The notes below the pieces were generated by a model, which worked only from the letters and a program-made list of their open reading frames with translations, had not been told where the DNA came from and ran no database searches. From NCBI GenBank assembly GCA_021234155.1, contig JAJEKV010000057.1, positions 5,115,821 to 5,179,820 on the forward strand: a DNA stretch of 64,000 nt, written 5' to 3'. Numbering within the stretch: position 1 is the stretch's first letter; each line of letters opens with the position of its first letter. Source of the DNA: Isoetes taiwanensis (lineage: Eukaryota; Streptophyta; Lycopodiopsida; Isoetales; Isoetaceae). Below, piece by piece: positions 1 through 63,592 of this stretch. The position numbers were made by a program, and so were the translations under genes.

Positions 1-1452
1 AGAATCCGCCCCTCAGTTGTCTTTCTGAATCCACGAATATAATCTTCTTCCATCCCTGTGCCCAATACATTCTTCCCTCCAGGCTTGCAATCTGGCCATG
101 GCTATGGCTTCCATTTTTCAATCTCTTGCCTCTGTGCATACAGAGCAAAACAATTAGGACCAAATTGCGGTGCTTAAAAATCCTTTCCATGTCTTGTGAT
201 CGGATCAATTCTCGGCGCATCCAGAAAATCGAGTAATGGCGATTGCTTGGGTTGATGCTTCACATCCCGACAGTACTTGGGTTGCTCCATGTTTTTGAAT
301 CCGAGATATGGCCTCACATTGGATCCAGTCCGGCGCCGGAAGCACCGCCTTACACACATCGCGTGTCCTCAGATGGTCGCGAAGAGAAATATGTGTCAAC
401 AATGAAAGAGTCTAGATTGCGGCGGAGAACCAGGAAAATAAAAAAAGAAAAAAGAAAAATGTGAAACACAATTACATATGAGTTGATAAGATTGTAAGGC
501 AAAGGCAGTTTGTTTGCTTCCACAAAAAGTAATGAACAATAAAAATGGATGGTAAACTCACCTAAAAAGCTCTTGCTGAATGTTGGCCAAATCTGCCTTG
601 GCTGAGTGTTGCCCGAATGAAGCAGGCAGATCTGTTTGCCAAATTTGCTGGCCGAATGAAGCTAGAATCTCTGAACATTAAATGCCACGCTCCCCAAGGT
701 CTTCATACTACTATGGGATGAAACCAGAAATAAAGTAGATGGGTTACGCTTTCGGGCTTCCCCAAAACAAAATGTTTGCAAGATCCTCCGAAGCTCTCGC
801 GTTGGATCCATGTATTGAATTTTTCATTCTCTCCTTCTACCCTAAAATAACCCTAAAAAGATGGCACGATGCTTGCTAGAAGAGATTTTGGTACTAAAAA
901 TAATATATAGATCCGGTATTCCTATGCTCACGTCTTCTAAGCGTATTTGCGAGAAATACGTCCACTTCCTATACCCCTTGCCGGACCAATGCCATAAAGC
1001 CCTAGAGAAAACAACCGGTTCCACGGTTTGGCATTCCACGGCAAACCCCCATTGCATGCACTTGGCTACTATGGCTGGAGGAATCATGGCAGCGAGAAAT
1101 CATGAACAAAAACATGGCAAATTCTCCCTCAAGGGCTTTCTGTTTTGTAACTCGCTGGCCGATTGTTGCTATACATAGAAGTGGGTCGAGCAAACAATTT
1201 TTATCACCTCTTTCGCGCCTCTCAAGCACCTCCACACGGTAAAAAACCAATTCCGTCCCTGCCATCAAGCTTGGCGATGTCGTAAAGGACAATAGAAGCT
1301 CCATCGGCCTCTCGTAAGCAAAAAACAGAGTGAGAATACGCAATCTTTTTTTTTCCTTTAGCTTTTTTTTTTTTTCAACCGTGAGATGGGCCAAACAAAT
1401 AGCGGCCATTGGATCTAGGGCGTGGTCCATTACACAACATTATAATATAAGA
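1..1452 (-). mobile_element. Helitron 5' end and body (family H1), 3' end outside the window
   Basis: On the minus strand a Helitron-like 5' terminus starts at 1452 with TCTTATATTATAATGTTGTG, followed by a CCCTAGATCCAATGG block. The same layout opens the Helitrons at 20190 and 26721. The base before it is A, as expected for insertion between A and T. It cuts the reading frame of the gag relic at 1453-1713. No 3' hairpin with CTAG is visible down to base 1, so the element probably continues to the left. No helicase or Rep coding was recognised, so it would be non-autonomous. The short ORFs in this stretch look like noise. Confidence 0.55.
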
Positions 1453-1713
1453 TTTCATCAAGCCACGCTTCTGCTTCCATTCCGGATCTGGTGTCTCCTG
1501 AGAACTGCTCGAGCTTTCTTGCTTTCCAGACATTGCTAAGCGCTGAGTCGACCTTCTTCTGATAATCAGATTGTGCCCTGCCCCTATTACGGTTTGGGTC
1601 GTCTCGTTGGTCCTGTCTCTCCACCTGCTCTTCCGATCCGGAATCAGAGTCTGAACTAGAGTCGGAGGAACCCGAGCTAGGGGAACTTCTTCTCCGGCTT
1701 CTCTTCCTTTGTT
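1453..1713 (-). pseudogene. gag N-terminal relic of the LTR retrotransposon, cut by a Helitron
   Basis: One minus-strand frame encodes an Arg/Ser-rich stretch (RKRSRRRSSPSS, then SSDSSSDSDSGS) followed by KLEQFSGDTRSGMEAEAWLDE. This resembles the start of plant Ty3-type gag proteins, where an SR-rich linker precedes a W/F-rich capsid start (FxG...EAExWLxEI). The frame is open from about 1713 to the Helitron insertion after 1453. It ends a few codons into the Helitron, so the capsid itself is missing here. It lies downstream (in sense) of the H3-like and unknown ORFs, which places those ORFs between the primer-binding site and gag. The family assignment rests on motif resemblance only. Confidence 0.5.
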
Positions 1714-2146
1714 ACCTTTGTTCAGCCCGGCCGGTGTTTTACGGCAATGGCACATTCGGTCTTGCCCCTCTGTTCTTTGCTGCTCTTGCCCGGCAATGCC
1801 CTTATCTCATGAATGTCGGATCGAATCTGTGATAGATCTTCCTCTGCTATCACTGCATCAAACTCTTGGCGTAGGTTTCTTGGCTGGAAACGCCATGGTG
1901 GAGTACGCTCTTGGTCATGATGTGCTTGTTGTTTAAGATTTCTAGGTACTCTAGCTGCATATACACATTAGATTATACTCTGATGATTAGTTCATTGTTT
2001 TGTCATTGCATTGGTTGTTTGATGATATAATTGTGGGGACAAAATATATCAAGAGAACATAATTGAAATTACCATTTGCATTTATGAATATAATAACACT
2101 TATACGTTCAAGGAGTTAGTCATAAGGATTGAAAATATTTTTAATT
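1714..2146. other. spacer between unknown ORF and gag relic
   Basis: About 430 bp inside the LTR retrotransposon with no supported coding sequence. The part from about 1940 to 2146 is AT-rich. Confidence 0.4.
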
Positions 2147-3790
2147 TTATTCTTGAAATTTCTTCAAATATTTGGGGTTGTCCTCCAAAAATTTCTTGAC
2201 TTGGATTGTGCCGACTGTTTGGCCTAGGTTCCTGAGGATATTTGTGGCAGTGCCTCCTTGAAGTGCGGTCTCCAAGTCCTCGATCATCCTATCCGAAGTA
2301 TATGCTGCAGTCACTGCCAACCTGCCCTACCGTCTGTAGGGGACTGCGAAGTCGAAGATACTTAATGCTATCATTCTCTTGATAAGGACGACATGGTCGA
2401 TGTTTGGGGCCATCCGAGCATGACTTCCGAATCCTTCTTCACCCCGTGGGCTGAATTGGCGGTGTATAACCGCTATTCTTCCGTCTAGGAGTAATGGATG
2501 GTAGAACCTAAGGGTTTTATCATGCCCTGCTTCCTCACCAGATGTTAAGGCTGCCCTATATCTTCCTGCGTACTCGTCAATCTGCACATCCTCCATTTCT
2601 CTGAAGTCCCGGTACACTAATTTGCTCAGGTTGATGCTGCTTCCATGCTGCCCTGGTGCCGATGCCAATGTGCTAGGTAAGAGTGCTGATGTTGACTTTC
2701 CCTTGATGCCCATGCGCTCTTGGATTGCCAGGAACTCTTCTTCTGACGGCAATTCCCTCTCGGTCATCCTCTGTCTGATGCTGATGTAAGACGTGATGTC
2801 TGATGACGTCTCGCCGGTGTATGTCCTGGCTTTCCTTATGCTGATGGGGAAGTCTTGAGTTTCTCGATCGATGAAGTCGTCGAGATGTGGTTGTTGTCGT
2901 AGGAGATGCAGAATTTCATCTACTCTGTAGCCCCTGTCTCAGCATTCTGGGAGATTTTTAATATCATGGAGGCTTAAGTATGCCTCTCCTCCTATGAACA
3001 CTGGGGTCAAGCTTGTTATTCCTTGCCCAAGTGGTGGGGCTCTTCTTGTTGCTCTGAGTCCTTATTCAAAGCTTTGAAGCTGCTGCTCTACCTGCTGCCT
3101 CTCCTGTGCTAGGTCGATGTCTTCTGAATCCGACCCGCGTCCTTCTTTTTCTTCTTCCTCCTCCTCGTACTCGAGGCACATTCTCTCCTCTTCTGCTGGT
3201 GCCATGGCCATGGGTTCAACTTCTAAGGGCTGCACTGAGGGTTCTCCTATCTGGGTTTGGCCTCTCTGAGATAGGTAAATAGCTACTGCTGTTGTATAGG
3301 AAAAGTACCTCCTCCTATTGACAGAGATAGACATGTAATTGGGTAGGCGAACTGCTTTGTTCTCTAGGTACTTGTCTATGTTTGGGATGTCATGCAGAGC
3401 TGACTTAAGGGCCATGCTGGGGGCAAAATATCCTATAAAAGGTGGGAGTTCTACCAAGGATGGTCCTATCTTAGCATAGAACTCAGACATAATGTCCTGG
3501 TAAAAAGGGGTGGCATTGATGGTGGTTTCCACATCAAGCTCCTTCTGGAAGACAGCGAAGACGGAGTTGATGTCAGCTTCGGCCACATAAGATGTGGCGC
3601 TGTACCATCGCCTGAATGCAATCGTTGCGCAGCTGGGGATATCAAACAGATAGGCAAGCGCCTTAGGGGTCTGGAAAATCGGCTTGGAGTGAGGAGCAAA
3701 GGTCTTGGATGCAAATGGGGGTTGTAATCTACTTATAGGCAAAAACTCTAATTTTGGGAAATTTTTGGATAAGGGAAAATCTAGGATTCT
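2147..3790 (-). pseudogene. long degenerate ORF of unknown function inside the LTR retrotransposon
   Basis: A single minus-strand frame runs from about 3790 to a TAA at 2149-2147 (over 530 codons). It is interrupted by only three in-frame stops, TAA at 3064-3062, TGA at 2941-2939 and TAG at 2329-2327, with no frameshift. No ATG opens it; a TAG lies just upstream in frame. The first 225 codons look globular (motifs such as RRWYSATSYVAEADINSVF, PPFIGYFAPSMAL) and end in an acidic Glu-rich stretch (YEEEEEEKEGRGSDSEDID). The later part includes DEILHLLRQQPHLDDFIDRE and KLVYRDFREMEDVQIDEYA. I do not recognise the family. By position it may be an accessory or capsid-related protein of the element. 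Confidence 0.5.
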
Positions 3791-3910
3791 AAGGTATTGC
3801 TAAGCAAAAGACAAGCTAATCATGCTAAAGAATACATTCTAAGGATCCTATTGCAACAAATTTCATCTAATTTGGAGAAAGTATGGACAAGTTAGGGCAA
3901 TTTTAGTGTG

Positions 3911-4396
3911 ACCACTCACACAGTGCGCCAGGGTCGAATCGGTTTGCAAACCGATTTGGTCTAGGCGCACTCTGTGAGGGGTGGGGCCTTGTTTGGGTCA
4001 AAGATGATGCCAAACATGGAAACTAAGGATAAAATTCTGCATATCTCGTCGAGATAGGTCGGATTGAGCCCTTACTTGCCTCATTTGGACAAGTTTTGGC
4101 CTAGTTTTGGGGTCGACCACTCACACAGTGCGCCAGGGTCGAATCGGTTTGCAAACCGAATTGGTTTGGGCGCACTCTGTGAGGGGTGGGGCTCCATTTG
4201 AGTTAGGGTTGGCCAATTTCTACAAACTAGGGGTCAAAATCCTACTAATTAAGATGAGCTGAGTCGAATGGTGTACTTACTTTCTGCATTTGGACAAGTT
4301 TTGGCATCAAACCATGCTCGACCACTCACACAATGCGCCGGGGTCGAATCGGTTTGCAAACCGAATTGGTCTGGGCGCACTCTGTGAGGGGTGGGG
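3911..4396. repeat. three copies of a 76-bp hairpin repeat at exact 205-bp spacing
   Basis: Copies at 3911-3986, 4116-4191 and 4321-4396. Each starts ACCACTCACACAGTGCGCC and ends GGCGCACTCTGTGAGGGGTG, arms that are imperfect inverted complements. In the first copy the core AATCGGTTTGCAAACCGATT is a perfect 20-bp palindrome; the other copies keep at least CGGTTTGCAAACCG. Intervening DNA is partly conserved (CATTTGGACAAGTTTTGGC before copies 2 and 3), so these are diverged tandem repeats of about 205 bp. They lie between the H3-like gene and the next ORF of the retroelement. Confidence 0.9.
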
Positions 4397-4532
4397 CCAA
4401 AAACACTTGGTTTTAGTCCAAATTTGTTAATTCCAACTAGAGAACTTAGTACACATCCTACTTACACCTGATTTAATACATTGATTTATCCAAATTACAA
4501 ATTTGTATTAACAAAAATTGTTTACAACAGTC

Positions 4533-5040
4533 TTAATCAAATTCTTTCTTAATATATTTAGCTAACCTCATGTCTTTGGGCATACATGTCACCCTATTGG
4601 CATGAATTGCACACGCTACAGAGTCTTCAAAATGTTGGACTATATGTTGCTCGGTTGCCTCCTGGAGTGAGAGCAGCATATCGTCCGTGACTCTCTTCGA
4701 CTTGTCGAATTCCTGCAAAATTTCCCGTGTCAGCCTTGCGAAAGGAGCCCTGGGAATGAGGAGGCCATAGCTCCTCTGGAAATGCCGTCTCGGGAGGCTC
4801 TGGCAAAGTATGAGTCTGTCCTCCTCTTCGGGGGTTTCTTCGGTGGAGCAGGTCTCTCAGGTGGCGGCTTCAGAGTGTTCTTCTTAGTCGGCCAGCCTCC
4901 TTCGACAAACGTGACCTTGTGCTCGTCGTAATACTTAGAGTATTCTTCGTACATTTTCATGTACGAGTTATGCTCTTTCAGCTTCTTTTTATACTCAAGG
5001 CTCGTGCTTGAGTATATACGACTCCCTCTATGGCCTCGGC
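4533..5040 (-). pseudogene. histone H3-like C-terminal histone fold encoded by an LTR retrotransposon
   Basis: The minus frame ending at 4533 encodes an H3 histone fold. Visible parts in order are QRSYGLLIPRAPFARLTREI (H3 alpha-N), LQEFDKSKRVTDDML (alpha-1/loop 1), LSLQEATEQHIVQHFEDS (alpha-2), and CAIHANRVTCMPKD followed by MRLAKYIKKEFD (loop 2/alpha-3, C-terminus). The LALQEA..., FED, CAIHAxRVT and MPKD signatures of H3 are retained. A lysine-rich stretch between 5040 and about 4800 (EYKKKLKEHNSYMKMYEEY, then APPKKPPKRR) lies in another frame. So either two compensating frameshifts or an unrecognised intron separate it from the N-terminal part at 5028-5753, which shares the fold's frame. 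LLIP..PF resembles the centromeric H3 (CENH3) form, but loop 1 has the ordinary H3 length. Confidence 0.85.
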
Positions 5041-5753
5041 TTCTTGGGGCTGTTGCTGGGGTGCTTTGGCGACGGCCACTTAGGGTACGGGGGCACCCTT
5101 GCTGCTTGCTCCTCCTCCTCCTCTTCGGCTGGAGTCTGCCCTACAGTCGAGGGTCCTGAGCCTTCGGCTGGTGGGGGAACCCTTACTCCTTCATCTGACT
5201 CAGTGTCCGATGAAGACTGCCGCTCCTCTGGGTCTGGCTCCTGAATGACGACACCTTTTGCCGGGGTTGTCTTCAATTTCCGTTTGGTGTCCTTCAGTAG
5301 CGCAGGGGCTTTTACCTTGTCCGCTCTCTTCTTCATACGCTCCTCCCGTCGCCTCATCTTCTCCTCCCTCTTCTGTTTCTTCTCTTCCCTCCTTTTTCGG
5401 CGCTCCTCCTTCTCCCGTCGGCGGCTCCTTGCTCTTCTTGATGCCTGTTTCTTCGCCTTCCCGCTTTCTCTTCTTCTCCTTTTTTGGCTGTCGAGCTCCC
5501 TCTGGAGCTCCCTACTCAATATCTCTGCAGCTTCTTCTTCTGTAAGTTCTTCACCCCCCTCCTCAAGGTCTTGGGGCCGATCCTCCTCCTGGTGCTCAGG
5601 GGCCTCCTCTTGGGCATCTGGGTTGGGCTGAGCCTCCTGTTCCTGCTCGGCTCGCTCCTGAGCCTGTCGGGCCTTCTGTTGAGCGGCCCGCTCTTGGGCG
5701 CTCATATGTCCAGGGGGCACTAGAATTCGGGCGGTCTGTTTGGTGCGGGCCAT
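5028..5753 (-). CDS. H3-tail-bearing, charged coiled-coil protein of the LTR retrotransposon (N-terminal part of an H3-like protein)
   Basis: The ATG at 5753-5751 opens a 241-codon frame beginning MARTKQTAR. After Met removal (expected before Ala) this equals residues 1-8 of histone H3, with Lys9 replaced by Ile. Next come an Ala/Gln/Glu helix (SAQERAAQQKARQAQERAEQ), an acidic section, then about 60 residues of continuous Arg/Lys/Glu (ERRKRREEKKQKREEK and similar), likely a charged single helix or coiled coil. A Ser/Asp patch and a Pro/Lys tail (SPKHPSNSPKKPRP) follow before the TAG. The histone fold at 4533-5040 lies directly downstream, so tail and fold probably formed one protein of about 400 residues. 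Upstream in-frame codons exist, but the H3 identity fixes this start. Chromatin binding is inference. Confidence 0.85.
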   Translation of the reverse strand: MARTKQTARILVPPGHMSAQERAAQQKARQAQERAEQEQEAQPNPDAQEEAPEHQEEDRPQDLEEGGEELTEEEAAEILSRELQRELDSQKRRRRESGKAKKQASRRARSRRREKEERRKRREEKKQKREEKMRRREERMKKRADKVKAPALLKDTKRKLKTTPAKGVVIQEPDPEERQSSSDTESDEGVRVPPPAEGSGPSTVGQTPAEEEEEEQAARVPPYPKWPSPKHPSNSPKKPRP

Positions 5754-5970
5754 GTTTTGATTTGAAGCGATTTGAGCTTTGGCGCCTAAAAATTGTTTTC
5801 TGAGATGAGCTGTTCTCCGAAGGCGCTGGGGACAAATGAGGAACCCTAATTTTCTATTTATAGGTAGGGGTAATTTAGGGTTTGAACCTGCAATTCCATA
5901 TTGGACCAATCTAGAAGGTATTAGTGAAGACATGAGGGGTACATTAGGTTTATTTAGCGAAAAAGCATCC

Positions 5971-6259
5971 ACCACTCACACAGTGCGCCAGGGTCAAATC
6001 AGATACCAAACGGATTTGGTCTGGGCGCACTCTATGAGGGGTCACCTCTTTTTGGGTCTAATTTTCAATTTACAAGGGGTTTCTTAGTGTTATAACATGC
6101 AAAACTAGCTAGAATCAAGGAGATAAGTTGAACTTCACCATTAGTTTAGCTAAATTATACATCTAACTAGGTCCACATGGGTCCACCACTCACACAGTGT
6201 GCCAGGGTCGAATCAGTTTGCAAACCGATTTGGTCTGGGCGCACTCTGTGAGGGGTCAC
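5971..6259. repeat. two further copies of the 76-bp hairpin repeat in the retroelement leader
   Basis: Copies at 5971-6043 and 6185-6259 (214 bp apart) show the same ACCACTCACACAGTG...GGGCGCACTCTGTGAGGGGT arrangement. The 5971 copy is diverged in the palindromic core (AGATACCAAACGGATTT). They sit between the primer-binding site and the H3-like start codon in sense orientation, so they would be in the leader of the genomic RNA. Confidence 0.85.
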
Positions 6260-6457
6260 TTCTTTTTGGCCATTTTAGGTTGGGTTTCTGCTAAAACTTA
6301 TTATTAACTTAGCATTAACCTATTTACTATACTAGAATTGGAAAAACATTTTCAATTTTTCGAGGTTCCTGCTTGGGTGGCTATTTCCCAAGACTTGAGT
6401 CTACTATTAGTCCTATGGGAAAATGGTCAGTGCTCGATCTTGGTCTGCCAAGATCAT

Positions 6458-6469
6458 GCTCTGATACCA
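6458..6469 (-). other. primer-binding site (initiator Met tRNA)
   Basis: On the minus strand TGGTATCAGAGC lies two bases after the LTR end. It is the usual complement of the 3' end of plant initiator tRNA-Met and fixes both the orientation and the LTR boundary. Confidence 0.92.
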
Positions 6470-6470
6470 C

Positions 6471-8066
6471 TGTGACATCCCCTGCTTCTTATACGATGCA
6501 CCATCGTATTCGAAGACGGAGCATTTCCCCTGACAGCCATCTGGCAGTGGCCATCCACCTGACTCCACTCCCAGTGGAATGAGCCAGCAAGGGAAGAGTG
6601 GATGTGTTATTCACCCGTCTTCCATCGGGTCGACCTATCTGCGGAAGCGTGAATACAATGAGCACATAACACAATATACAATACAATCACCCCGAAGGGG
6701 AAAACATCATATCATCATCAATATAACAACATCAACAGGAATATTGACAGTGCAAGGTAATCCTACCCAGGCTCAGACTCAAGGGGGTATGACTGACGGC
6801 TTGGGCCTCCAGAAGTCATTGCAGACAGAATTCATGGCACATGGATTTGGCTGGCATAAGAACATGGCTAAGGGTAGTCCACTTCATCCGCCCCTCCTGT
6901 GCACACTTTGCAGATTGGGTTGAAAAGCGTTGGGACCGGACCGTAGCCTGCCAGGTGCATAGCCGAAAGGGCTACTACTGGGTTGCATCTCCCCAGCCCT
7001 GATGAGGCCGGAAGAGAGTTGCCTCTCCTCCAGGGACTTCCATGCGCAACACAGGTGACTAGAGAACCACTGCCCTTATTCGACTTGAACCTATTGGAGA
7101 GTGACGCATCACTCCACGGGTGTCGAGCTCATGCCTTGCCCACACGCAGTGGCAAGCCATTAAGCCTAGTCCACAGGGATCCCTGATAGGCTTTACACAC
7201 CAGAGGGATCGTTCTGTGTTGGGACAAGTACCCCATTGTCTTGCCGGTCTAGCCCCTCAACCCACAACCTGGTGGGCTCCTGTGCACAGGCCGCAAGTAA
7301 CTGGAAACTAGAAGGTTGCCTAGAATCATCTGCTATACAGGCTTTAGGCCTCTACCCCCCTTCCCAATACATGGAGGTCATAGAATGAAATACCAACATC
7401 ATCATAGAACTGAAACGAAGAACATCATCTAATCTATCTACCTAAACATCCAGAGTTAGGTTCCTTAGTTAGGACTTATGATCTCGGGATCTGTAAGGCC
7501 TCTATGGCTGAATGAATATGCTAAACTACCTTACTGCCTAGCCCAAAGACGACTTTGCACAACAGAATGACTGATTACCTGCTCCTTGGCCCGCTTCAGA
7601 TCCTCGGAACGCATCCATGTCCCTGATCTTGCTGAAGATGGCTGCTACTCCACGAGCTGTTGTGCAAAGGCGGCTTTACGGAGCCTCGCAATGCGAATTT
7701 GGTTATGGCCAGAATGGCTCAAGAGAACCCTAAATGCGAAAAGGGAAAGGAGCTCTATGAAAACCCTTAAATGCAAAGAGAGGAAATGTTTTAGGGTTTA
7801 AGGGGAAACCCTTATATAGAAACCCTTAGGGTTAGGTTAGACATTGGCAAATGGGGTTTAGCCATTTGGCAATGGGGTCCATGGGGTTATTAATTGTGTA
7901 TGTTTATTTAACATGCACAATGTTCAAAGTTGCCCCCTAGGTGCAACCCTTGCCCCCTAAGTGCAAACCTACTACAACCACCAAGTACATGTCATCCGTG
8001 ACATGTACGGGTGACGTGGCAGTATAATATACGTATTTGGGGCGTATATTATGCTGGAACGTCACA
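6471..8066 (-). repeat. 5' LTR, 1596 bp
   Basis: On the minus strand it starts TGTGACGTTCCAGC at 8066 and ends GGGGATGTCACA at 6471, giving TG...CA ends with a short terminal inverted repeat (TGTGAC/GTCACA). The primer-binding site follows immediately. A TATA box (TCTATATAAG) lies at 7820-7811, about 250 bp into the LTR. Small inverted repeats (ATAATATACG/CGTATATTAT and ACATGTCA/TGACATGT) lie close to the outer edge. The matching 3' LTR is not in the window, so age cannot be estimated. ORFs inside the LTR are not supported as genes. Confidence 0.85.
7791..7820 (-). promoter_or_regulatory. LTR TATA box with adjacent telo-box-like motif
   Basis: TATATAAG (minus strand, 7818-7811) is followed about 12 bp downstream by AAACCCTAA (7800-7792). 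More AAACCC/AACCCTAA motifs lie nearby (for example 7821-7838 and around 7770). Telo-boxes (AAACCCTA) just downstream of TATA are common in plant ribosomal-protein and some histone genes. A regulatory role here is inference. Confidence 0.5.
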
Positions 8067-9557
8067 TTTGCACTCTCTTTTTTCCAGCTGTTTTGGCTTT
8101 AGCTTTGACCATAAATTTTTGTGTTGCCTTGGCTGCAATCTCCAAGGCTTCTTCAACATCATCTGGCTCCATTGAATCGTCGCAAGTCTCTAAAGTAAAG
8201 AAAGTGCTTCATTCTAATGTTTTGAAAGCAAGACAAAAAATGAAACACGTACCTGCCAAAGAACAAGACTTTTCCTCAACTTGAACTTCAACAGCAGCTT
8301 CAGGACTGTTTTCAGTGTCGTCACCAACATCTTCAGTAATTTTATCTGTAAACACGTCAACGTAAGTTTCAAAAAAAAAAAAAAAAAGAAACCCTGAAAA
8401 GGAGAAAGAATTACTTTCTGGGCTTTCAGCTTGTTGCTGCAATAGTAGTAGCTCAGCTTCAACAGCTGGGATCTCTTTTTGGAAAACAACCTCTGCTGCA
8501 AAATATTGATGTAATCAGACTGTAATCACCCTACCTTCCACAATTTCTGAAGTTTCTCCATGTACCCCTTGGTCTCTAAATCATGCACTGATTGCTTATG
8601 AGTTGTTGCAATTCTCAAAGGTGATGTAGATGTGGATGGACTTCCAACGTCGATAGCAGTAGCATGTTTTGTGCCAGGTTCAGCAACTGGGATGTCTGAG
8701 AATGGTAAATGCAACCCCTTCCCAACAACATCTTTCTTTTCACCTACAACATTAGATTTTGCTATATTCAAAACTTAAGCATAGTGCAAGAAACATGAAT
8801 TGTTTAGTTTACCTGCAGTTTTAGTTCTTGCTTTCTTGATACTACCCATATCTGCATTGACACAATTGGAATCATAAGCAAATAAGAAATATAAACACTT
8901 GATTGAGAATCAAGGGAGATGTAGAGTAGATAGAAGCAAAATCTGCAGAAAAAACAAGCAGATGCAAATCAAAACAGAACAAATGTTAAATAGATGCAAG
9001 TAGGTTTTTACTACAGGCAAACTTTCTGCTGATAATGTAACGACAAAATAGAAGTACATTAGTGTGCATAGCTATCAGAATGTAAAGGAAAACCAAATAC
9101 TAAATTCAAATGCATTTCAGAACATATGTAAAATGTAAAGAACAAAATATTTTATCAATACACCCTATCAAATACATCATTCAACATTAAATGTAAAGGA
9201 AAATCAAATACTAAATTCATATGCATTTCAGATCACATGTAAATGTAAAGTACAGTCATATGCAATACACCCTATCAATACACCCTGTAAAGGAATTCCA
9301 GAAAAGCACTTCATGGCACATGTAAATGTAAAGAACAGAAGCAAATACATTTCCTCTTTATAGTAAAGACAAAACCACGCCAAATCAAATGCTAACACAG
9401 TTATGTACATGATGGAAATTAACTACATCTAAGTACACTCAAACTAATTATGTAATGAAAATAGAAATAGATGTACCTTGAGAAGGGATTCCTAAGCAGT
9501 GCCGCAGGTCCTCGGACCATGAACAATCATGTACACATGTATTCGTCATTTGAAACC
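8062..9557 (-). CDS. 3' exons of a spliced gene of unknown function, ending at the LTR insertion
   Basis: Six minus-strand exons with GT-AG borders keep one frame: 9557-9477 (TNTCVHDCSWSEDLRHCLGI), 8851-8813 (MGSIKKARTKTA), 8743-8535, 8490-8415, 8345-8253 and 8189-8062. Phases agree at every junction, which makes chance unlikely. The protein end is acidic (ITEDVGDDTENSPEAAVEV, EPDDVEEALEIAAKATQKF) then basic (KAKAKTAGKKRVQM). I do not recognise the family. The last in-frame codon before the stop spans the LTR edge at 8066, so the stop (TGA, 8064-8062) comes from the retrotransposon. Upstream coding is probably the disrupted frame at 9704-10697; an intermediate piece near 9613-9660 (TNTCSSCNDCLDSTM) has an ambiguous phase. 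ATG in exon 8851 could be an alternative start. Confidence 0.5.
9075..9345. repeat. diverged tandem repeat, about 110 bp, two to three copies
   Basis: AATGTAAAGGAAAAYCAAATACTAAATTC and GCATTTCAGA recur at about 9075 and 9190, with a degenerate third copy near 9290. It lies in a probable intron of the gene at 8062-9557. Confidence 0.6.
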
Positions 9558-9703
9558 CTGAATACAAGACAAAATAGACAATATGTATGACCACAAAGTG
9601 GAGATATTACCATGGTCGAGTCAAGGCAATCATTGCAGCTACTGCAAGTATTGGTAATATGTGAGGATGAAGCGCTCCGTTTTGCTGCGAGTATGGGAGC
9701 GGG

Positions 9704-10697
9704 CTACAGGCCTATCGGGTCTGATCTTTCCAAATGCTTAGTCATCTCCTTTATTCTATTCTCACAGTTGGAATTAACTTCCAAATCCTTGCTGATTTTT
9801 TCAATGGCAGCTTTTAATTCTTGCAAATCAGCCTTTAAAAAATCAATTGGAATCATTAGAGCATCTAAGTCAGCAATATAACTTGATTTCTCCTCCTCTA
9901 AGTGGGATGCCAAAGCCATTTGCAAATCAGTTGGCTTTCCGCTTGCTTTTAAACCTGCCATAATACTGAACTGCTCACATATTTGTCCATCTTTATTCTG
10001 CACAAATCTTGTTAAGAAGCTCTTATCACTCTCATGCTTCAATAGTTCAATTTCCATTGCTTTCCTTTTCTCTTTTAAAGTCTGTATTTCATCAAGCATG
10101 GAGGCAGAATCTAATGCTCTTCTTTCCCTTCACCTTTTCATCATTTCCAACTGCTGCCCCAATTCTACCAGAGGCATACGTTTAGTAGCTTTAACATTGG
10201 AAGATTTTACTGTAGCTAATTCTGTCAGATCATATTCTTTTGAGGGCCTTTTGAATGAAGACTTGCACTTGCTTTCACCTCATCCCAATCAATGCTTATT
10301 CCTTTGTAATGAAGTGCATATGCTCGGGCAAAATACAATGGAATGTGACGATTTGCAATGTCCTTCCTACAAAAAACGTGCTCATACACAGAAAAAAATC
10401 TGCCATCCAAATAGGCTTAATCCTGCACTCTTGATAACCCCTCACAGCAGGGGCTTCAAAACCTCAAACATCCTGCACTATTTGCACTAGCCCTGGAAAC
10501 ATGCTCTCAAAATTGTTGCTCCTAAGCTGTCTGATGCTTACTTTGTCAAACTCGGGCGGCAAGACCTCCCGATCTGAAGAAGACCCACTCTTGAGTTTTC
10601 GGGCGGCAGTTCTAGTGGGAGACCTTGGCATGGGCTTTATAGGTTTGTTGCGAGGAGATTTCCTTGGAGATGTCTTTGTTCCAAGCTGCTTCGTCAT
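9704..10697 (-). pseudogene. disrupted coiled-coil protein, likely 5' coding part of the neighbouring spliced gene
   Basis: Read 10697 to 9704 on the minus strand. A basic Ser/Pro-rich N-terminus (TSPRKSPRNKPIKPMPRSP) is followed by LPPEFDKVSIRQLRSNNFES. After a stop/frameshift near 10464 comes AYLDGRFFSVYEHVFCRKDI. Another frameshift near 10275 leads to KRPSKEYDLTELATVKSSN, then one in-frame TGA near 10112, then a long coiled coil (LDEIQTLKEKRKAMEIELLK to ELKAAIEKISKDLEVNS). The overall shape resembles plant transposon-derived or plant-mobile-domain-type proteins, but no diagnostic motif was found. Two frameshifts and one or two stops argue for a pseudogene unless hidden introns explain them. 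Confidence 0.45.
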
Positions 10698-10759
10698 GAT
10701 ATCTTCCCTGGTGCTTCAACTCTCTGAAAATGCAAGCTTTTGGCTATGGAGGTCCTGAT

Positions 10760-11300
10760 CTTGGCTATGGAGGTTCGATTATGGATGTCAAGCTTTCGGC
10801 TATGGAGGTTCGAGCGGGAGGGAGGTTGAACAGAGAGCGGGAGGAGAGTTCAAAATTATTTCCCCTATTAATGATTCATTCCAAGAATAATTATTTCTGG
10901 GGGGAGGGATTTCCTTACATTTTGAATTTGTAAATGTAAAATACTGGCACTTTTTTTGCCCACCCTTTCATGCTTCTACCCATCCCTATGGCAGAAAAAG
11001 GTATGCACACTCAAATGATGATACCTTGAGTATTTTTAAACATTTCTGATTGATATTTGAAATGACTATCAGGAATAACTTATAGGAACATGTGGAAAGA
11101 AATTTGGCTTGATTTGAAACTAAGGTGATGGAGAGATACGTGTTCAAATTGGATAAAATTTTATGTCAATGAACTGTAAGAAACCAGCAAACAATTTTTT
11201 GGATCACGATTTCTATAAAGTTTTTGTTGTGTGCTTTCAACCATTGCAAGTCTAAATGGGACCTGAGATCATATGCATATGCTCAAAAAATGGATTTGAG
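10760..11300. other. intergenic, no supported gene
   Basis: It begins with short direct repeats of TTCGGCTATGGAGGTTCGA and CTTGGCTATGGAGGT (10737-10812). The rest is AT-rich and I see no gene, LTR end or TIR. Confidence 0.4.
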
Positions 11301-11309
11301 GCAAAAGGG

Positions 11310-12835
11310 CAAAACTCTCTGCAGACTAGTCTCTTAGATGTAGATAGTTTGCTACAGCAACTGCATAAATTGTACCATATGACAGGTTTACATGGGGGAA
11401 TGGACAGACAGGGCGATATCCTCACATTTTCAGAAACAGATGTATTTGAAGGGCTTAAATCACTATCTGTGGCAAGGCAGCTGATGCACTTGGGTTAATG
11501 GCAGAAATGATAAAATGGGCTGGCCCAACTGTAGCCAGTACCATCACTAAAATGATGAATAGAGCATTAGTTGAAGGCTTCCCTCACACATGGCAAGTCA
11601 ATAGAGTGGTACCAATCCATAAAGCAGGCGATGTCAATGACCCAAGCAATTATAGAATGATCATGATAAGCAGTCTGTTCTCAAAATTATTTGCCAAGCT
11701 TATAGAGATGAAGCTAAGTGATTGGGCAGAGATGCATAATGTCAGAGCATCTAGGCAGGCAGGCTTTAGGCCTAACAGGTCCATAATAGACCACTTAATC
11801 ACTATGAGAGCAGTGAAAGATGTTGTGAAGAAAACTAAAAAGCCGCTCTTTGCTTGCTTTGTAGATCTCACTAAAGCTTTCGATATGCTAAGAAGAACGA
11901 ACATATGGGTGGATCACATTGGAGTGCCACAAGAGCTCAGGAACGCAATAGCAGTGCTATATGAGAATGTGTTGGTGAGTCTATCTTTCCCGCTAAATAA
12001 ATCCTGTAAAGCAGAGATAATTAGTAATATTGGAGTAAAGCAAGGATGCCCTTTATCCCCTACACTGTTTGGAATATATATAGATCAATTAGAGACGTGG
12101 ATGCAGAGACATGGTGGAGGGGGGACTACAATTGCAGGATACTTGCTTATTTTACTCTTATATGCAGATGATATTGTTATTCTTGCTCAGAATCACCATG
12201 ATATGCAGAGGCACTTGGATGCATTAGCCAACTTTTGTGACGCTACCGAAATGCAGGTGAATCTGAATAAGACTAAAATTCTCATTTTTGGGAAAAGAGT
12301 TCATAACTTCCACTTCTAATACAAGGGAGAAGAGGTGGAAATAACAGACACATATAAATATTTGGGACTTATAGTGGATCACACTTATGGGTAGAACAAA
12401 GCAGTTGGGCAACGTACTGATGCTGGGATCAAAGCGCTAAATGCAATGCAGCAGAAATGCAGAAAAGCGGGAATTGTAGATTGGAAACTGAAGAAAATGT
12501 TATATCAAACATTGGTTAGGATAGTTGTGCTATACAGATGTGAAGTATGGGGGCCTGGACTCTCCCAAGAAATGTGGAAAAGAGTTGAAAAAATCTAGAA
12601 AAAGTTCATTTTGACGGAATTAGGGGTAAAAATGCAAACCCCGTATCATATGATGCTAGCTGAAGCAGGAATGGAGATGTTAGAGGCTGAAGCATTATTT
12701 CTGACGCTCAAATATGTGCAAAGGGTCCATGACATGAATGCTGATAGGCTACCGAGACTTGCAATGATACAGAGTAGTCTCAAGGGATGGTATAATGATG
12801 TGAATAAATGGTTGGATAAAATGGGGAATGGGCAT
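11310..12835 (+). pseudogene. LINE copy A: 5'-truncated reverse transcriptase domain
   Basis: The frame starts inside the ORF2 linker (LLDVDSLLQQLHKLYHMTGL). After a frameshift near 11460 it runs through the RT: QVNRVVPIHKAGDVNDPSNY, FVDLTKAFDM (motif A), VKQGCPLSPTLFGIYIDQLE (motif B) and LLLYADDIVILAQ (motif C, YADD intact). A TAA at about 12317 and TAG at about 12396 and 12597 break the later part. It is closely related to LINE B (16593-24486). The copy is interrupted at about 12835 by a plant L1 and resumes at 15041. It cannot be active. Confidence 0.85.
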
Positions 12836-15033
12836 TTTGCAGATGATACCTTCATCCTCTTATCCATGGACCTCCAGTCGATTAATCATGCCAAGGAGAT
12901 CTTAAATGCTTTTGATAACCTTTCTGGCTGCAAGATTAATCCCACAAAATCCAAGATTACCTCTCACAACCCGGATCTAGGAGCTCAGGTTGCCACTCTC
13001 CTTTAATGCAGTTTCAATCCCCCAAATGTTCATTCTAAGCTTCTAGGCATCCCTTTCGCCATCCGATCAAATGCTGCTGAATTATGGAATAACATCATCG
13101 AGAAATTCTACCACAAAGTCGACACTCTCAACTCAAAGTTCCTTTCTAAAGCTGGTCGGGCAATCCTTGCAAACTCGGTCATTGCCTCAACTCATGTGTA
13201 TCAATCCTCCTTCATTCTTGCTCCAAAATATGTATACAGGAAGCTACAAGGAATCCTTGGGAGATTTATCTCTTGTGGTAGCAACAGAAAATGCTGGACT
13301 CCAGTCTCCATGGAAGAGTGTTGCAAATCCAGGTCTATGGGAGGACTAGGCATCATCAACATTGAGAAGCATGCCATAGCCCTGGCAGCAAAGTATTTCT
13401 TCAGGGCCATTATCAACAAGATCCAGCATCCGGTTACAGTCCTCATCAAGCATTATATCCTCCAATGCAAGCCATATGGTTGGAACATCAAAATGTTGCT
13501 CCCTGACGCAGCCTTTTTTTATTTCCAGATCCCCAACAATTGTCCTCCCTTGATAAGGAAATGGATTATGGCTTGGAAGCAGGTAAAGGGAATGTATTCA
13601 TGGGAGAAAGGCATTTCCCTTTCTCAAAACATATTCTGGAATCCCTACCTCCTTGGTGAAAACAGCACCCATTGTCTCATCAGAAATTTCCCAGACCAAG
13701 CAAAACTTTGGCAAGAAAAAGGTTTAATTACAATTTCGGATTTATTCGATGCTAACGGTTCTATTCCTTTTGATTCCTCCATTATCAGGAATGAAGATGA
13801 CAACAGCAGATCCCTTTACAATGCCATCCTCAGCTATATTTCTCTAGCAGAATGGAATAACAGTGACATTACTTGGCAATACAAAGGGAAACTTCTCTTT
13901 AAAGTAAAGGAGGCATATAAGTATCTTATGAAAGATCAAGAGATGAGTATCCACCTCAAATGGGGAATATCCCAGGAATGTTGCAGATCCAATCTCATGC
14001 ACCTTTGGAAATCCCCAATCAATCCCAAAATCAAAGCATTCATTTGGCAATTATGGCATAAAAGCTTAGCCACAAATTGCAAGCGCTTCAGCTGTAACTT
14101 CTCGAATTCTAATATCTGCCCCAGGTGTCTCTCTCATGCAGAAAATGAAGACCATTTATTCAGATCCTGCTTTTGGTCCCAATGGACAATTGAGATCTCT
14201 TCAGAAGCCTTGCTACTAAATCTCTCTCTAGAGAGTCCTGAAGTCGACTTCTTTTTACCAAACTCTCCCAGACATTGGAGCTTCTATATCCTTCTCTGGA
14301 GAATTTGGAAAGGCAGAAACAAGCTGGTTTTCTGCAATGAAATAATATGGCCTCAAGCCATTCTCTCTCAAACCAACTATGATGTGTCTTGGATTTATAA
14401 AATTAACTCATAAGCTCACCTATTTTGCAGGAAAATTCTTTCTCATGAGTAGACGGATCTCCTTCCCAAACAAGAAGTACGAGGACATTCAGAAATGGGC
14501 AGCTGATTTCTTGACAGGCTGCTCCTTCCATCATTTCGAAGAAGACTGTGACTGCATTTGCTCGTGTGCCCTTCAGCCGGATTTGAAGAGAGAATTTATC
14601 TGTCAGGCTAGAGATGCAGCAGGAAAATACAATTTTGCTAAATCCAGAATCTGCCCATGTCTCTATTGCAAGATGACAATGATCACAAAAGGGCCGGACC
14701 CCCTAGACGATGCTGGCTACTCCTCTGGTTAGATTCAACGGACCTGTTGCAGTTGCTCGACATCCTGATGAAGACAACTCAAAACTCTGTTACACTCTGT
14801 TATCTTTATCTCAGAGCTTTCGATTTCAGTTTTACAACCTTTGTTTCAGAAAACTGTTATAGTTAATTCCTTTTTCTCCTATGACATCCTTCTATGGTGT
14901 CTTGGAAAATCGGATACACCTCTGTTTAAAAAGCCTCATTTTCTGGGAGGTTAGTTTTGGGTGGACACTCCCCATATAAGTGGTCATTTTTGTTCTCTTT
15001 TCAAAATTATAAATATAATACCATCCTTCAATC
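12836..15033 (+). mobile_element. 5'-truncated plant L1-type LINE inserted in LINE copy A
   Basis: The insert begins at RT motif C (FADDTFIL), then CKINPTKSKI and the thumb (FLSKAGRAILANSVIAS...). It continues to a zf-RVT-type C-terminus with the Zn motif CPRCLSHAENEDHLFRSC (C-x2-C-x8-H-x4-C) and FYILLWRIWKGRNKLVFCNE. The 3' UTR contains a conserved block (GACACTCCCCATATAAGTGG) and ends ATCCTTCAATCAAAAAAA, a short poly-A tail. The main frame is mostly open (13196-14413). LINE A protein sequence resumes straight after the tail. A clear target-site duplication was not found. A second copy lies at 62009-63590 on the minus strand. Confidence 0.85.
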
Positions 15034-15040
15034 AAAAAAA

Positions 15041-18662: not shown

Positions 18663-18680
18663 TTTGACCACAAATGCAGG

Positions 18681-20189
18681 ATGCAAAGAAGACAATTTAA
18701 ATTAGCAAAGGGAGATGCGAAGGCCTTGGCAAGAAGGGACTACATCAGAATGGTTAAGAGGAAGAAACAGGCTTATTTGCGTAAGAAACATGAGCAAATG
18801 GTCACAGAATTATTGGCATATCCGAAGAAGTTTTGGAATAGATTGAAACCTTTCCAAAAAGCGAGTACAATGGTAGAGGTTGATGCTTTGATGAATCATA
18901 TTAAACATCTCTATCATGTGCCAGGTGTGGACACAAAAATGGATGGGGCATATGAGGAGGGCTTCTGTTTCTCCTTGGAGGACGTGCAGGATGGGCTCCA
19001 AAGATTATCCAATGGTAAGGCAGCAGATTCGGAAGGGCTTATAGCTGAAATGTTTAAATGGGCAGGTGATAATGTGGTAGAAGTCTTGGTAAAGTTGGGC
19101 AATGCTGTCTTGTTTGAAGGCTTCCCACACACATGGCAAGTGAATAGGGTGGTCCCTCTTCATAAGGCAGGTGATGAGTCTGATCCAAATAACTACCGTA
19201 TGATTATGATATGTAGTTTTTATGCCAAACTTTTTGTTAACATGCTGAACGCTAAAATAAGCACATGGTCCGAGGTTCATAATGTGAGAGCAACAGGGCA
19301 AGCTGGTTTTAGGGCGAGGAGGTCTACAACAGATCATTTGGTTACCATGAGAGCCATGATGGATTCGGTGGTTGGTAAGAAGAAACCTTTATATGCATTG
19401 TTTGTTGATTTCTCTAAAGCTTTTGATATGGTTGGGAGAGGACATTTGTGGGATAGAATGTCAGCTCTTGGTGTGCCTGTTGAGTATACGCATGCAGTGG
19501 CCAAACTTTATGATAAAGTATTGGTTCAGCTTTCTTTCCCATACATCAGTGATAAGTATGTTGAAAGCAATATGGGGGTTAAGCAGGGCTGCCCACTATC
19601 GCCCACACTTTTTGGTTTATTCATAGACCAACTGGAGGATTGGATCTGTCAAAATGGTGGTGATGGAATGCCTCTATATAGGTATGTTCTTCTGCTATTG
19701 TTGTATGCCGATGATGTTGTTCTATTATCTAGGAGTGTAGCGGGTCTACAAAAGCACTTGAATGCTCTTGAGGGATTTTGTGACATGAAAAGCATGCGGG
19801 TCAATATGGCTAAAACCAAGGTTGTAGTGTTTGGAGCTACCAAGGTAGATCATGTAAAGGTATTTTACAAAGGAGAGCATGTTGACATTGTGGATCGTTA
19901 TAAGTATCTTGGTCTAATTGTAGACAAAAGTCCCAACTGGAATATAGCGGCTGATCAAAAAGCGGATGGTGGGCTTAAGGCTCTCTATGCCATGCAACAC
20001 AGATGTAGGAAAGCAGACATATGGGATTTCAGCATGAAGAAGAAGTTGTATATTGTTTTGGTGCAATCAGTGGTGCTATATGGATGTGAGGTATGGGGGG
20101 CAGGTTTGGCGTTGGATAGATGGAAGAAAATTGAAAAAATACAGAAAAGATTCTTTCGTGCTGAGCTTGAAACTAAGGTGCAAACACCA
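18681..20189 (+). pseudogene. LINE B reverse transcriptase, open to the Helitron insertion
   Basis: About 500 continuous codons. They hold VNRVVPLHKAGDESDPNNYR, YALFVDFSKAFDMVGRGHLW (motif A), MGVKQGCPLSPTLFGLFIDQ (motif B), LLLYADDVVLLSR (motif C, YADD), MRVNMAKTKVVVFG, YKYLGLIVDKSPNW and SVVLYGCEVWGAG (thumb). The frame stops only because a Helitron begins at 20190. Removing 20190-23669 fuses QTP with YDMLLVECG, exactly parallel to QTPYHMMLAEAG of copy A. The RT catalyses target-primed reverse transcription. Confidence 0.9.
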
Positions 20190-20367
20190 TCCTATATTAT
20201 AATGTTATAGGGTGTTGTATCCAGCCCTAGATCTAATGGCTGAGATTTTGCCATCCAATTAAAGGTCGAAGAAGTCCAGCCCTAAAAACTTTATGTTTAA
20301 ATCGCCTCTCTTGATGAGTTGTAGGGTTTCGCCTCAACGTTCTTCTGCAGCAGACACTGCAAAATCG

Positions 20368-34598: not shown

Positions 34599-34980
34599 CA
34601 GGGATAGGTTCAATACGCTGTACGTTTTATACGGAATACGTATGAATTGTATGATACGGCACATATTTGCCGTATAAAACGTAAAAAATACGGCAAAAAA
34701 ATACGGCGTCGGAAGATTTTCGCGTCTGCCGAAAACAACGCGGAAAGCGTCTGGCGAAAATTTTCGGCGTCGCGAAAGCGATGAAAACCGCTTCTGTGAG
34801 CGCCAAAAAAAAAAAAAAAAAAAACCTCAGATCGCTGCACGCGATACGGAAAAATTTTTTTCTGATTTAAAATTTTTTTCACAGACGCTGGAATTCTTTC
34901 AGATAAACGCGAAAATACTTTCGGCGTCGCTAAGCGATCTGAAAGGTTTCGCGTCTGTGAAAAAAAAAAAAAAAAAAAAA
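34599..34980. repeat. AT-rich TIR element, inverted orientation, truncated at the array start
   Basis: It starts CAGGGATAGGTTCAATAC (reverse orientation of the family) and ends in a 20-A run directly at array unit 1. No second TIR. Confidence 0.6.
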
Positions 34981-35398
34981 CCCCCGCCCAAACTAGCTTC
35001 AGACAAAAGCCATACTAGCATGACTATCTACCTCGGTCAATCCCTTGGTAGACTTATCCAGCCATACATGGACTAGGCTAATCCAAGATGGTACTCCATA
35101 TCCATGGTCCATGATACTTATCAAGACATACAAAACTAGCCTAATCTTATAAGTCTTGAACAACAAAAATGACTTTTATGAATCAAAAGACCAAAATACT
35201 AAATTTAATAAAGACCTTTGGCATGTTTTTACAGAACTGTGCCTGTTCATACAGGTCAATACATGTTTTAAACGATTTCTTCGCAAGTACATCATTAGCC
35301 CACAAACCATGCAGGCTTATCATTCCAGCATCAACCTACAAACTTATGCAAGCTAATCTGTTTACACACATCTCCAAGTTTTACTTCGATTGAATGCT

Positions 35399-36189
35399 AT
35401 TGATGGCTGCTGCACTCCCTGCAGTAGGAGAAGGCCCGCACTCCCTGTGGGTTGCTTATGGCACTCCAAGTGCTGAGATCAGCTCAGACCTGTTCTTTGC
35501 AGACCGACCTCTGTGCTGCTTGGTATGAATGCCTCTGGAGCAGAAATAAAGTCCTTCCCCTTTCCCAGCTAGGGGGAGATTAGGATCGAAGGACAAGTCA
35601 CAACTGGATAGTATGGGCTAAGGAAGAGATTAAACGAGGAAGTCCTTATCAGTTGCTCACTCATTCCATGTTCTTGCGTTCCAGGGGGAACCTGAACTAG
35701 GAACCTCGAGTGAGTTGATCTTCTTGAAGCTGGAGTATATGCGGGCAGGTGTAGCAGCACTGGAGAGTGAGTGGACACCCCTTCTGGGGCAGGCTTGTGT
35801 GATGTGCTTCTTTGCTAGAAGAAGGTGCAGACATCCGTAGTCTGAGAAATGGAAGGGAGAACCACTTATAGTATAGCAAGGTAGCATGATAGTCCATGCC
35901 AAGTTAACGCGCAGGATGAAATTCGCTTCTGGGTGCTCTTCAACTGTTTGTATCTGTCGGTTATGAGCTTCAGATGGCTTTAACTTCGGACCTTACAGTA
36001 ATCTTTTCCATTTGTCCAGCTGAAAGGAATGATACTTGTCCCTCGATCTGTAGTCTTGGATTAATGGGTAGACCATTGTATGTAAAGTTATATCCGGCCT
36101 ATTGTGGAGCCATTCCAATAAGGTCTTGTACCCCCCTTTTTTTTTCGGTTTAATAAAATCAAAATATCTTGCATCCAAAAAAAAAAAAA
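35399..36189 (+). mobile_element. poly-A-tailed retroinsertion of 791 bp in array unit 1
   Basis: It is flanked by GAATGCT duplicates (35392-35398 and 36190-36196) and ends GGTTTAATAAAATC...CATCC plus A12. Other units have the uninterrupted GAATGCTTTGTATA site. Size, tail and target duplication indicate LINE-mobilised DNA: a 5'-truncated LINE 3' end or processed transcript. No coding match recognised. Confidence 0.8.
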
Positions 36190-37217
36190 GAATGCTTTGT
36201 ATATATGGATAATCCAAAAAGGAAGGATCTCACCAATATGTAGACCTTCCTCAAAGTATAAGAGTGATTGTCTATAATCATATCTTCAAATCACCAATTC
36301 TGAAATAATACTTCTAAGAGATGAAGTCTTGGTTACCTGCAGCCAAACCAATTACAAGTTAGCCTGATAAGGGTAAATGTAAAGCAGCTAGCAGGTAAGC
36401 AATAAGACTTCATGGCTTTTCGCCCTTCACCTAGTTGTATTGTATCCATCTATTTTCAATAAAAAATGCTAAACAAAATGTGAATCTTTATGTTAGCATC
36501 ATCAATCCTCCAAATACTAGTGGATCATGATTTTTACATGAGCATCATTAAACAAGCCATAGACTTTGAGCATGCGTTAGTACTCAAATTACAATGCAAA
36601 TACTCAAAACTTGTTTAGAAAAGCTAATTACATACATTTCTTAAAGCTTATAAGTTCATATGCATATGAACTCATCAATCTTTACAAAAAACCAAATCTA
36701 GGTATGCCAAAAATACAAAGAAAGTACTTGCTGCCATAAAATTACAGCTCTTAGAAAAAATGGCATAACTCTCTGTAGGAAGCTCTGTTTTTCTATTATT
36801 TATATGTTTCGGAAACGGCAACATATGCTCTACCATTTCAAGTAAAAATCGTCTGATTTTAAAAAAAAATGCTGCATCAAAAATTGATTTCCGGAATCAG
36901 ACCTAAATGCCCTTACCGCTTTCAAATGAAAGTTTGTGATCCAAAAGTTTATTCTTAAGATCTGTAGCCACATAACAAGATGATTTAGGGAACAAAAGGC
37001 CACACCTAAGAAGTGTTCTTGATGTGGGCTTTGTCCAAAAAAAAGGCTGGTTTATATCGATCCATAGCGCCTCATCATGCTAAAGCTGCAGCTTTTGCTA
37101 TGCATCGGCAAGGTTTGTGCCATCCTGATCATAGTGCTTATGAAATGAAGCGGCAAGAAGGCGCTCTCCTTGTTTGCCATTGAAGAGAAGAAAGGATGCC
37201 ACAATGGTGATAACTAC

Positions 37218-37538
37218 GGGTAAAAGCATGTTAGGGTGTCCCTTAAAAAGTATTATTTAGTGACCAAAAAAGTACCTAAAAAGGTACCCAAGACTGGGTA
37301 CTGGGTACCTGTGTAATATCTCAATAAAAAGTACACTCTAGAACTTTTATATATATTCTGGTCTCCAGTAGCATTATCTTTATCTTAACTTTGAATATTA
37401 ATGCGTCCTTGACTTTTATTTTGGACTTTCGTACTAGTTTTAATGAAAATAAAAATGAGAAAGTACCCAGTTCTGAAGTACCTAGTGTATGTACTTTTGC
37501 AGGTTCCAAAAGTGGTACACCCTAACATGCTTTTACCC
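37218..37538. mobile_element. MITE, 321 bp, 22-bp perfect TIR, CTAC duplication
   Basis: The ends are GGGTAAAAGCATGTTAGGG... and its exact reverse complement, 22 bp each. It is flanked by CTAC (37214-37217 and 37539-37542). Units 2, 3 and 4 keep the empty site AACTACCTCCATT. Inside are GTACC/GGTACC-rich words (AAGTACCTAAAAAGGTACCC). A 4-bp duplication does not fit hAT, Mutator, CACTA or Tc1; superfamily undetermined. Confidence 0.85.
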
Positions 37539-40500: not shown

Positions 40501-40705
40501 TTGTCATACTGTAATCATAGGGCGGACATGACCCTACTATTACAGCAGGGGTCATGTCTTACCCTATAATTACAATTAACTTAAATATGAATAATTGAAA
40601 AATGCACAAAAATACCTCTGTACATGTGCTTCGATTTCTTGTAACACTTCATATGCTCATTTAAGCTTTGAAGAATATTTGTTTGTACTCAGTTCCTGCT
40701 ATTTA

Positions 40706-41484
40706 CACTACTAGAGGATGGGTTGTTTGCGACGTCAGTTTGCGACGTATATGAAACGTCCACGTCGCAAAAATCGCGTACGTTCCCATGACGTCGCACA
40801 AAATTTAAACGACGTCGCAGATAAAATGTCCCACGTCGCAGTTGGAACGTCTGGTCAGACGTCGCAATGGCAAAAATCGAGTACGTTCCTACGACATTGC
40901 ACAAAATTCAAACAACGTCGCAAATAGAACGTCAGACGTCACAGTTAGAACGTCTAGCCAGACGTCGCAATTGCCTACTACGTGCCACGTCCCATTAGCG
41001 ACGTACCACGTTGCAAGTGCAACGTCATTACAACGTAAAACGTAGCAATTGCAACGTCTCATTATGACTTAAAGAATAAATACAGAATAAATACAGAATA
41101 AATACAAATATGAGTTATTAAGGTGTTGGTAAGGCCTCAGGTTTGTTAGCCGAAGGTTAGGGGTTCAAGTCCACGAAAAAACATTTTGGGCGCACATATA
41201 TGTACGTCTTAGCAACATGTAAGCGACATATTTAGCGTATTTTTGTACGTATTTGGGACGTCCATGACGTCTCTAATACATTGCAAATGCGACGTGACGT
41301 CGCATATGCGACGTGACGTCGCGCTGCGACGAATCCACGGCGACGTCATTCGACGAATCCACGGCGACGTCATTTGCGATGAGCGGGAAACGTTATTAAA
41401 GCGTGTGCATGCGACGTTTGATGTCCTCGTTACGTCGCTAAGATGTCGCAAACGACGTCGCAAACTGCCTATTCTGTAATAGTG
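40706..41484. mobile_element. CACTA-type non-autonomous DNA transposon, 779 bp, TTA duplication
   Basis: The 5' end is CACTACTAGAGGATGGGTTG and the 3' end the complement of CACTATTACAGAATAGGCAG, both continuing TTTGCGACG (about 28-bp imperfect TIR). It is flanked by TTA (40703-40705, 41485-41487). Units 1, 3 and 4 have the empty site GCTATTTAGAGCATG. The interior is dense in ACGTCGCAA/TTGCGACGT words in both orientations, plus three AGAATAAATAC repeats (41070-41105) and a tRNA-like stretch. Confidence 0.88.
41121..41175 (+). other. tRNA-like / pol III B-box-like fragment inside the CACTA-type element
   Basis: GGTGTTGGTAAGGCCTCAGG is followed by GGTTAGGGGTTCAAGTCCAC, where GGTTCAAGTCC matches the pol III B box and T-arm. 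No complete cloverleaf can be drawn, so it is not annotated as a tRNA. Confidence 0.4.
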
Positions 41485-63590: not shown

Positions 63591-63592
63591 TA

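Follow-up and report, generated by a model that had tools for sequence, protein, structure and literature searches.

The minus strand of the 64-kb window (the whole stretch of DNA analysed here) carries what looks like the damaged 5′ portion of a plant LTR retrotransposon. Within it, as the first-pass annotation had proposed, lies an H3-derived coding sequence with both an authentic tail start and a histone fold. The sequence is in sense with the element, downstream of an LTR end and primer-binding site and upstream of further open reading frames. We give a probability of roughly one half to the reading in which the element carried this sequence as a gene, furnished with its own TATA-like box and situated between the primer-binding site and gag. 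Capture of an H3 gene, selection on its fold, and a role in chromatin are what we infer from these features.

The H3-like reading frame

The H3-like ORF occupies positions 5753-4533 of the minus strand and has three parts: the H3 tail start; about 310 charge-rich residues; and the H3 fold. Its opening, ATGGCCCGCACCAAACAGACCGCCCGA, encodes MARTKQTAR from a real ATG at 5753, and all nine residues, counting the methionine, are identical to H3, just as first annotated. This tail (5727-5753) begins piece 1 (5031-5753, 241 codons), the rest of which is rich in Lys, Arg, and Glu; with 24% K+R and 21% D+E overall, the piece bears out the earlier description of a charged region after the tail. Piece 2, a linker of 79 codons (4790-5026), follows in another frame, and piece 3 (4533-4787) encodes the fold, corresponding to H3 residues 52-133, together with a stop codon. 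Since pieces 1 and 3 share a frame and the middle piece (about 5026-4790) is in another, the ORF contains two frame changes and so lacks a single continuous reading frame.

The larger open stretch that spans piece 1 (5975-5031) was stop-free in none of 5000 mononucleotide shuffles. The middle of the ORF was also considered as an intron between the two same-frame pieces. This was rejected because the middle has its own open, protein-like frame, although 83 of 5000 shuffles were as open as the stretch that spans piece 2 (5140-4733).

A TATA-like box (5854-5863, minus strand) precedes the H3-like ATG by about 100 bases, and another (3729-3738, minus strand) lies before a second extra ORF. The pattern CTATAARTAG, picked after both of these boxes had been noticed, has two matches against 0.37 expected, a count reached in 6 of 100 shuffles.

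Between tail and fold, H3 residues 9-51, including most of αN, are unrecognisable, and similarity resumes near residue 52; a complete αN helix is absent. Also absent are the tail lysines K9, K14, K27, and K36 in their contexts, along with S10 and G12-G13. The position of K9 is occupied by isoleucine.

The histone fold

Two overlapping pieces of the fold region match Pfam Histone at 46.4 and 40.1 bits (cut-off 26.4), with E values of 5.6e-12 and 5e-10; no hand-entered reference is involved in these matches. H3 residues 52-133 align without a gap to positions 4787-4542, with 41 of 82 residues identical (tblastn E 8.6e-22, for a hand-entered H3 query). A PDB search returned 174 sequences at E<=0.001 (best 2.7e-12), and the 60 listed among these 174 are H3 or histone-domain entries. 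Taken with the nine identical tail residues, the Pfam and PDB matches make this a real observation at the level of sequence: the tail and fold are H3-like beyond chance, and the fold claimed at first pass holds.

The fold retains C110, A111, H113, A114, R116, D123, and L126 of the H3 core. Five of these (C110, H113, R116, D123, and L126) we take to be H3-H3 contact residues. Positions R63, F84, R128, and R129, presumably residues with known roles in H3, are altered, and residues 87-90 read DMLL, which we take to be neither the H3.1 nor the H3.3 pattern. An AlphaFold model, made from an eight-sequence alignment, is weak to fair (pLDDT 65.7). Its best matches in the PDB are mostly nucleosome entries, with about 50% identity, a TM score of about 0.54, and an rmsd of about 9.

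The fold probably diverged as part of a working protein, the frame breaks coming later. A canonical H3 decaying to 50% identity would be expected to accumulate stops and indels. Despite 50% identity to H3, the fold has no stop in 82 codons and no gap. When H3 was brought to 50% identity in a neutral simulation (point changes alone, without insertions or deletions), 213 of 2000 runs remained stop-free and the mean number of stops was 2.2. Moreover, measured against eight references the fold retains 21 of 27 invariant columns, compared with 19 of the 54 variable columns (p 3e-4), a figure inflated by the fact that seven of the eight were retrieved through words shared with the fold. With four hand-entered references, not selected by words, 22 of 33 invariant columns are kept against 19 of 49 others (p 0.012), and 11 of the 33 are changed. 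Retention of H3 core residues above the neutral expectation suggests that the protein probably evolved as a working one before it broke. There is a single readable copy, so the evidence for past function is moderate.

Search for relatives

Three queries were run against a protein database. Of 10 candidates for the full 405-residue query (lengths of about 223-708 residues), one matched its fold region; it is an ordinary H3 bearing a read-through tail, not a protein with the long charged tail. The linker plus fold matched seven of 24 candidates. All seven are divergent H3s, 141-180 residues long and 46-50% identical, and likewise lack the long tail. This second search took lengths of about 90-285 residues, so a 405-residue relative could not turn up in it. 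For the N-terminal 75 residues (lengths of about 133-422), none of 76 protein candidates matched at E<=0.01.

Viral contigs contained no match for the fold, the second extra ORF (searched as two pieces), the N-terminal ORF, or the hairpin pattern described below, and prokaryote contigs contained no match for the hairpin pattern. The protein, viral, and prokaryote collections are believed to be poor in plant DNA, so these empty results say little.

Anatomy of the locus

Reading down the minus strand from 8066, the order is: LTR, primer-binding site, hairpins 1 and 2, TATA-like box, H3-like ORF, hairpins 3 to 5, second TATA-like box, second extra ORF, and a gag-like start. The candidate 5′ LTR (6471-8066) has TGTGAC...GTCACA ends and contains a TATA-like sequence, CTATATAAGG, at 7810-7819. 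Its start is placed at 8066 as a candidate, on the strength of TGTGAC, a mirror of the GTCACA end with a single occurrence in 6400-11000; that frequency is near chance by estimate and has no significance alone. The primer-binding site, TGGTATCAGAGC, lies at 6458-6469, one base past the LTR end (...GTCACA), and its pattern matches once against 0.02 expected; we take it to be of the tRNA-Met type. Another sequence, TGGTATCTG at about 6008, was tried as the primer-binding site and rejected in favour of 6458-6469, because it forms the middle of a variant hairpin.

The hairpins are five near-palindromic repeats of 77 bases each, 94% alike, spread over 3908-6258 on both sides of the H3-like ORF. Two lie 5′ of it (6182-6258, RNA fold z -4.3; 5968-6044, z -6.4) and three lie 3′ (4318-4394, z -6.5; 4113-4189, z -6.4; 3908-3984, z -8.0), the last two following at a spacing of 205. 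Rfam has no match at gathering score within the window. The repeats fold strongly and may serve the retrotransposon in protein binding or in transcription.

The second extra ORF (2147-3688, minus strand) comprises 513 codons in one frame with internal stops at 3064, 2941, and 2329. It matched no Pfam family at E<=10, and a single-sequence structure model of its first 208 residues is unusable (pLDDT 38.9). Beyond it, at 1436-1711 on the same strand, is a probable gag start: a Ser/Asp-rich stretch followed by FSGDTRSGMEAEAWLDEI, the motif by which we take it to be gag. Pfam gave no gag match for this stretch; its best hits, SR-25 (E 0.075) and CCDC106 (E 5.8), fell short of the cut-off. The character of the sequence shifts past about 1435, where the element is cut or leaves. 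Neither a second LTR copy within the 64-kb window nor a pol domain in the scanned minus-strand ORFs of 1-6000 was found. In the proposed setting, an H3 ORF between an LTR with primer-binding site and a gag relic, the primer-binding site directly follows the LTR end, as in LTR retrotransposons; the gag relic is a call by motif.

Elsewhere the window contains reverse transcriptases at 11459-12316 and 18663-20207, which we take to be LINE-like. Relics of LINE-like type with reverse transcriptase and zf-RVT domains extend over 11459-15040 and 62007-63623; parts of these (13516-15040 and 62007-63522) are 77% alike in opposite orientation. In a recently expanded array at 34973-50513, blocks of about 0.3-3.2 kb recur several times and are about 93-99% identical; 46445-49607 and 37583-40705, for instance, match at 96%. 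A protein kinase piece at 55511-55924 has plant kinases SAPK10/SRK2E as its best match, which marks the window as plant DNA. The 210 bases at 56274-56483 match their own reverse complement at 100%, perhaps as an AT-type simple repeat.

Canonical H3, CENH3, or a passenger

What was captured might have been CENH3 rather than canonical H3, in which case it could have given the element access to, or influence over, centromeric chromatin. There are eight sites at which two hand-entered plant CENH3 sequences agree with each other but not with H3; the fold matches CENH3 at four of them, H3 at none, and neither at four. The CENH3-type residues are P63, A65, T85, and L89, but P63, A65, and L89 are found as well in some divergent database H3s. 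A small tree joins the fold to one of these proteins, P0007 (support 89). The pair sits in a larger group (support 80) made up of divergent H3s plus both plant CENH3s, and canonical H3 lies outside it. Human CENP-A also falls outside this group, however, and the tree has supports from 26 to 95, long branches, and hand-entered named references. BLAST scores against the fold run the other way: 82.0 bits for the divergent H3s P0003 and P0002, 80.9 for P0004, and 79.3 for canonical H3, against 69.7 for maize CENH3, 67.4 for Arabidopsis CENH3, and 63.2 for human CENP-A. Loop 1, moreover, has the H3 length and aligns with H3 without a gap, whereas both plant CENH3s require a two-residue gap there. 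One divergent database H3, P0006, has the full MARTKQTARKSTGG tail (MARTKQTAR), a 3-residue insert in loop 1, and the motifs LLIPRAPF and HANRVT; by our reading, the insert makes it CENH3-like. Its tail is a point for CENH3, as it places MARTKQTAR on a CENH3-like protein. On balance, a CENH3 captured and put to use on centromeric chromatin is unlikely.

A different question is whether the gene belonged to the element at all. Counted for an element gene are the sense orientation of the ORF, its position between the primer-binding site and the other ORFs, and the hairpins on both sides; counted against it are the single copy, the broken gene, and the lack of a second LTR, pol, or a Pfam gag. A single copy, or a nested insertion, might instead have taken up a host gene for a long-tailed H3 variant that played no role in the element's life. 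Only one copy is at hand, the TATA-like box would suit a captured gene that brought its promoter, and transduction of host genes by LTR elements, in single or few copies, has been described (PMC7264820). Such a one-off event is possible, if less probable than an element gene: no poly-A tract is seen where the ORF ends, hairpin arrays of the same type lie on both sides of it, and it is on the element's strand, although none of these points is decisive. The frame breaks, and the 940 bases that separate tail and fold, could also be explained by an ordinary H3 pseudogene that came to rest by chance beside an unrelated charged ORF starting with MARTKQTAR. A host pseudogene had been raised at first pass as the finding that would speak against the element. 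It is very improbable, because the perfect tail at a real ATG has the same strand and frame as the fold, and because the fold, gapless and stop-free at 50% divergence and biased toward conserved columns, is unlike neutral decay (here the moderate strength of that evidence applies). The tail might also be a short mimic, comparable to the ARSK motif of influenza NS1, that arose independently on a protein carrying an H3 fold. The identity does end exactly after residue 8. Yet both ends of H3 occur on one protein, which is explained more simply by descent from an H3 whose middle was replaced, so that mimicry too is highly unlikely.

How the element might have used its histone

For the preferred reading, an H3-derived gene of the element, a mechanism can be proposed, although it is much less sure than the anatomy. 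The element would have captured an H3-type gene of its host, either canonical or CENH3-like. In the captured gene, tail residues 1-8 and a large part of the H3 core would have survived, while residues 9-51 would have given way to the charged region, with the loss of K9, and selection would have preserved the fold until later decay. The protein might then have paired with host H4 and become a foreign component of nucleosomes or H3-H4 complexes, one unable to carry H3K9 or H3K27 silencing marks. The outcome could be weaker silencing of the element, or chromatin marked for its integration; integration targeting by the H3-like protein is an equally possible role. The hairpin repeats might be sites where this protein acted, or else transcription elements of the extra genes.

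A bolder version, which we consider distinctly improbable, has a plant LTR lineage encoding its own H3 (perhaps CENH3-like) as an anti-silencing weapon that assembles with H4, presents ARTKQTAR to H3K4 readers, and bears isoleucine in place of K9. Wherever it was deposited, such a K9I H3 would resist or block H3K9 methylation, and the hairpin repeats would mark the element's own DNA. The model is provided by K-to-M or K-to-I oncohistones. In the parts of two papers available, K27I (PMC6562757) and K36I (PMC11748643) are named as recurrent H3 mutations, and K9I has no match in either text. An inhibitory effect of K9I on H3K9 methyltransferases is therefore suggested by analogy. Furthermore, S10 and G12-G13 are gone, so methyltransferase binding may be spoiled.

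If intact relatives exist, this would be a retrotransposon equipped with a core component of the very chromatin that silences it; resistance of transposable elements to silencing via altered nucleosomes would become testable, and a natural K9-less H3 would be at hand. If those relatives share the H3, some plant parasitic DNA may act directly on its silencing chromatin. If the capture was a one-off, the locus is no more than a curious find, an H3 derivative with a long tail preserved in an element that is dead.

Comparison with known systems

The first-pass annotation knew of no plant retrotransposon with this layout. As regards plant LTR elements this stands, in that none with a histone gene appears, by title and abstract start, among the open-access matches listed. 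The novelty does not extend to transposons at large: a hAT DNA transposon in Pyrenophora tritici-repentis includes a gene resembling H3, with 26 H3L copies reported (PMC3538342), so a transposon carrying H3 is not unheard of. In both cases a divergent H3-like gene travels with a mobile element, in Pyrenophora beside the transposition genes. The hAT element, however, is a fungal DNA transposon with terminal inverted repeats, whereas the locus described here belongs to a plant LTR element, and the available part of that account mentions no long insert in H3L, in contrast to the charged region of the H3-like ORF.

Extra ORFs and acquired domains have been described in several plant LTR elements (PMC7264820, PMC6317226), among them an orchid Ty3/gypsy element with AlkB (PMC9289625). 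These elements resemble this locus in having a sense extra ORF with an acquired host domain. As far as the consulted portions of these sources go, the domains are chromodomain, plant mobile domain, AlkB, G-patch, B3, and others, and not histones; and, unlike the elements compared, the present one has two extra ORFs upstream of its gag-like stretch.

Single histones carried by parasites are also known from viruses (PMC9145170): the H4 of bracovirus, whose tail is extended and which is incorporated into nucleosomes of the host, and the H3 of xenomavirus. These are animal DNA viruses, and their folds are about 87% and 77% identical to host histones, against 50% here.

Finally, the VANC proteins of Arabidopsis VANDAL transposons strip methylation, and their targets are often tandem repeats (PMC5735166). 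VANC is not a histone, and its function has been demonstrated, whereas an anti-silencing function for the H3-like protein is a guess from sequence. The likeness lies in the arrangement: an anti-silencing factor encoded by a transposable element, with tandem repeats as its targets, as the hairpins here might be.
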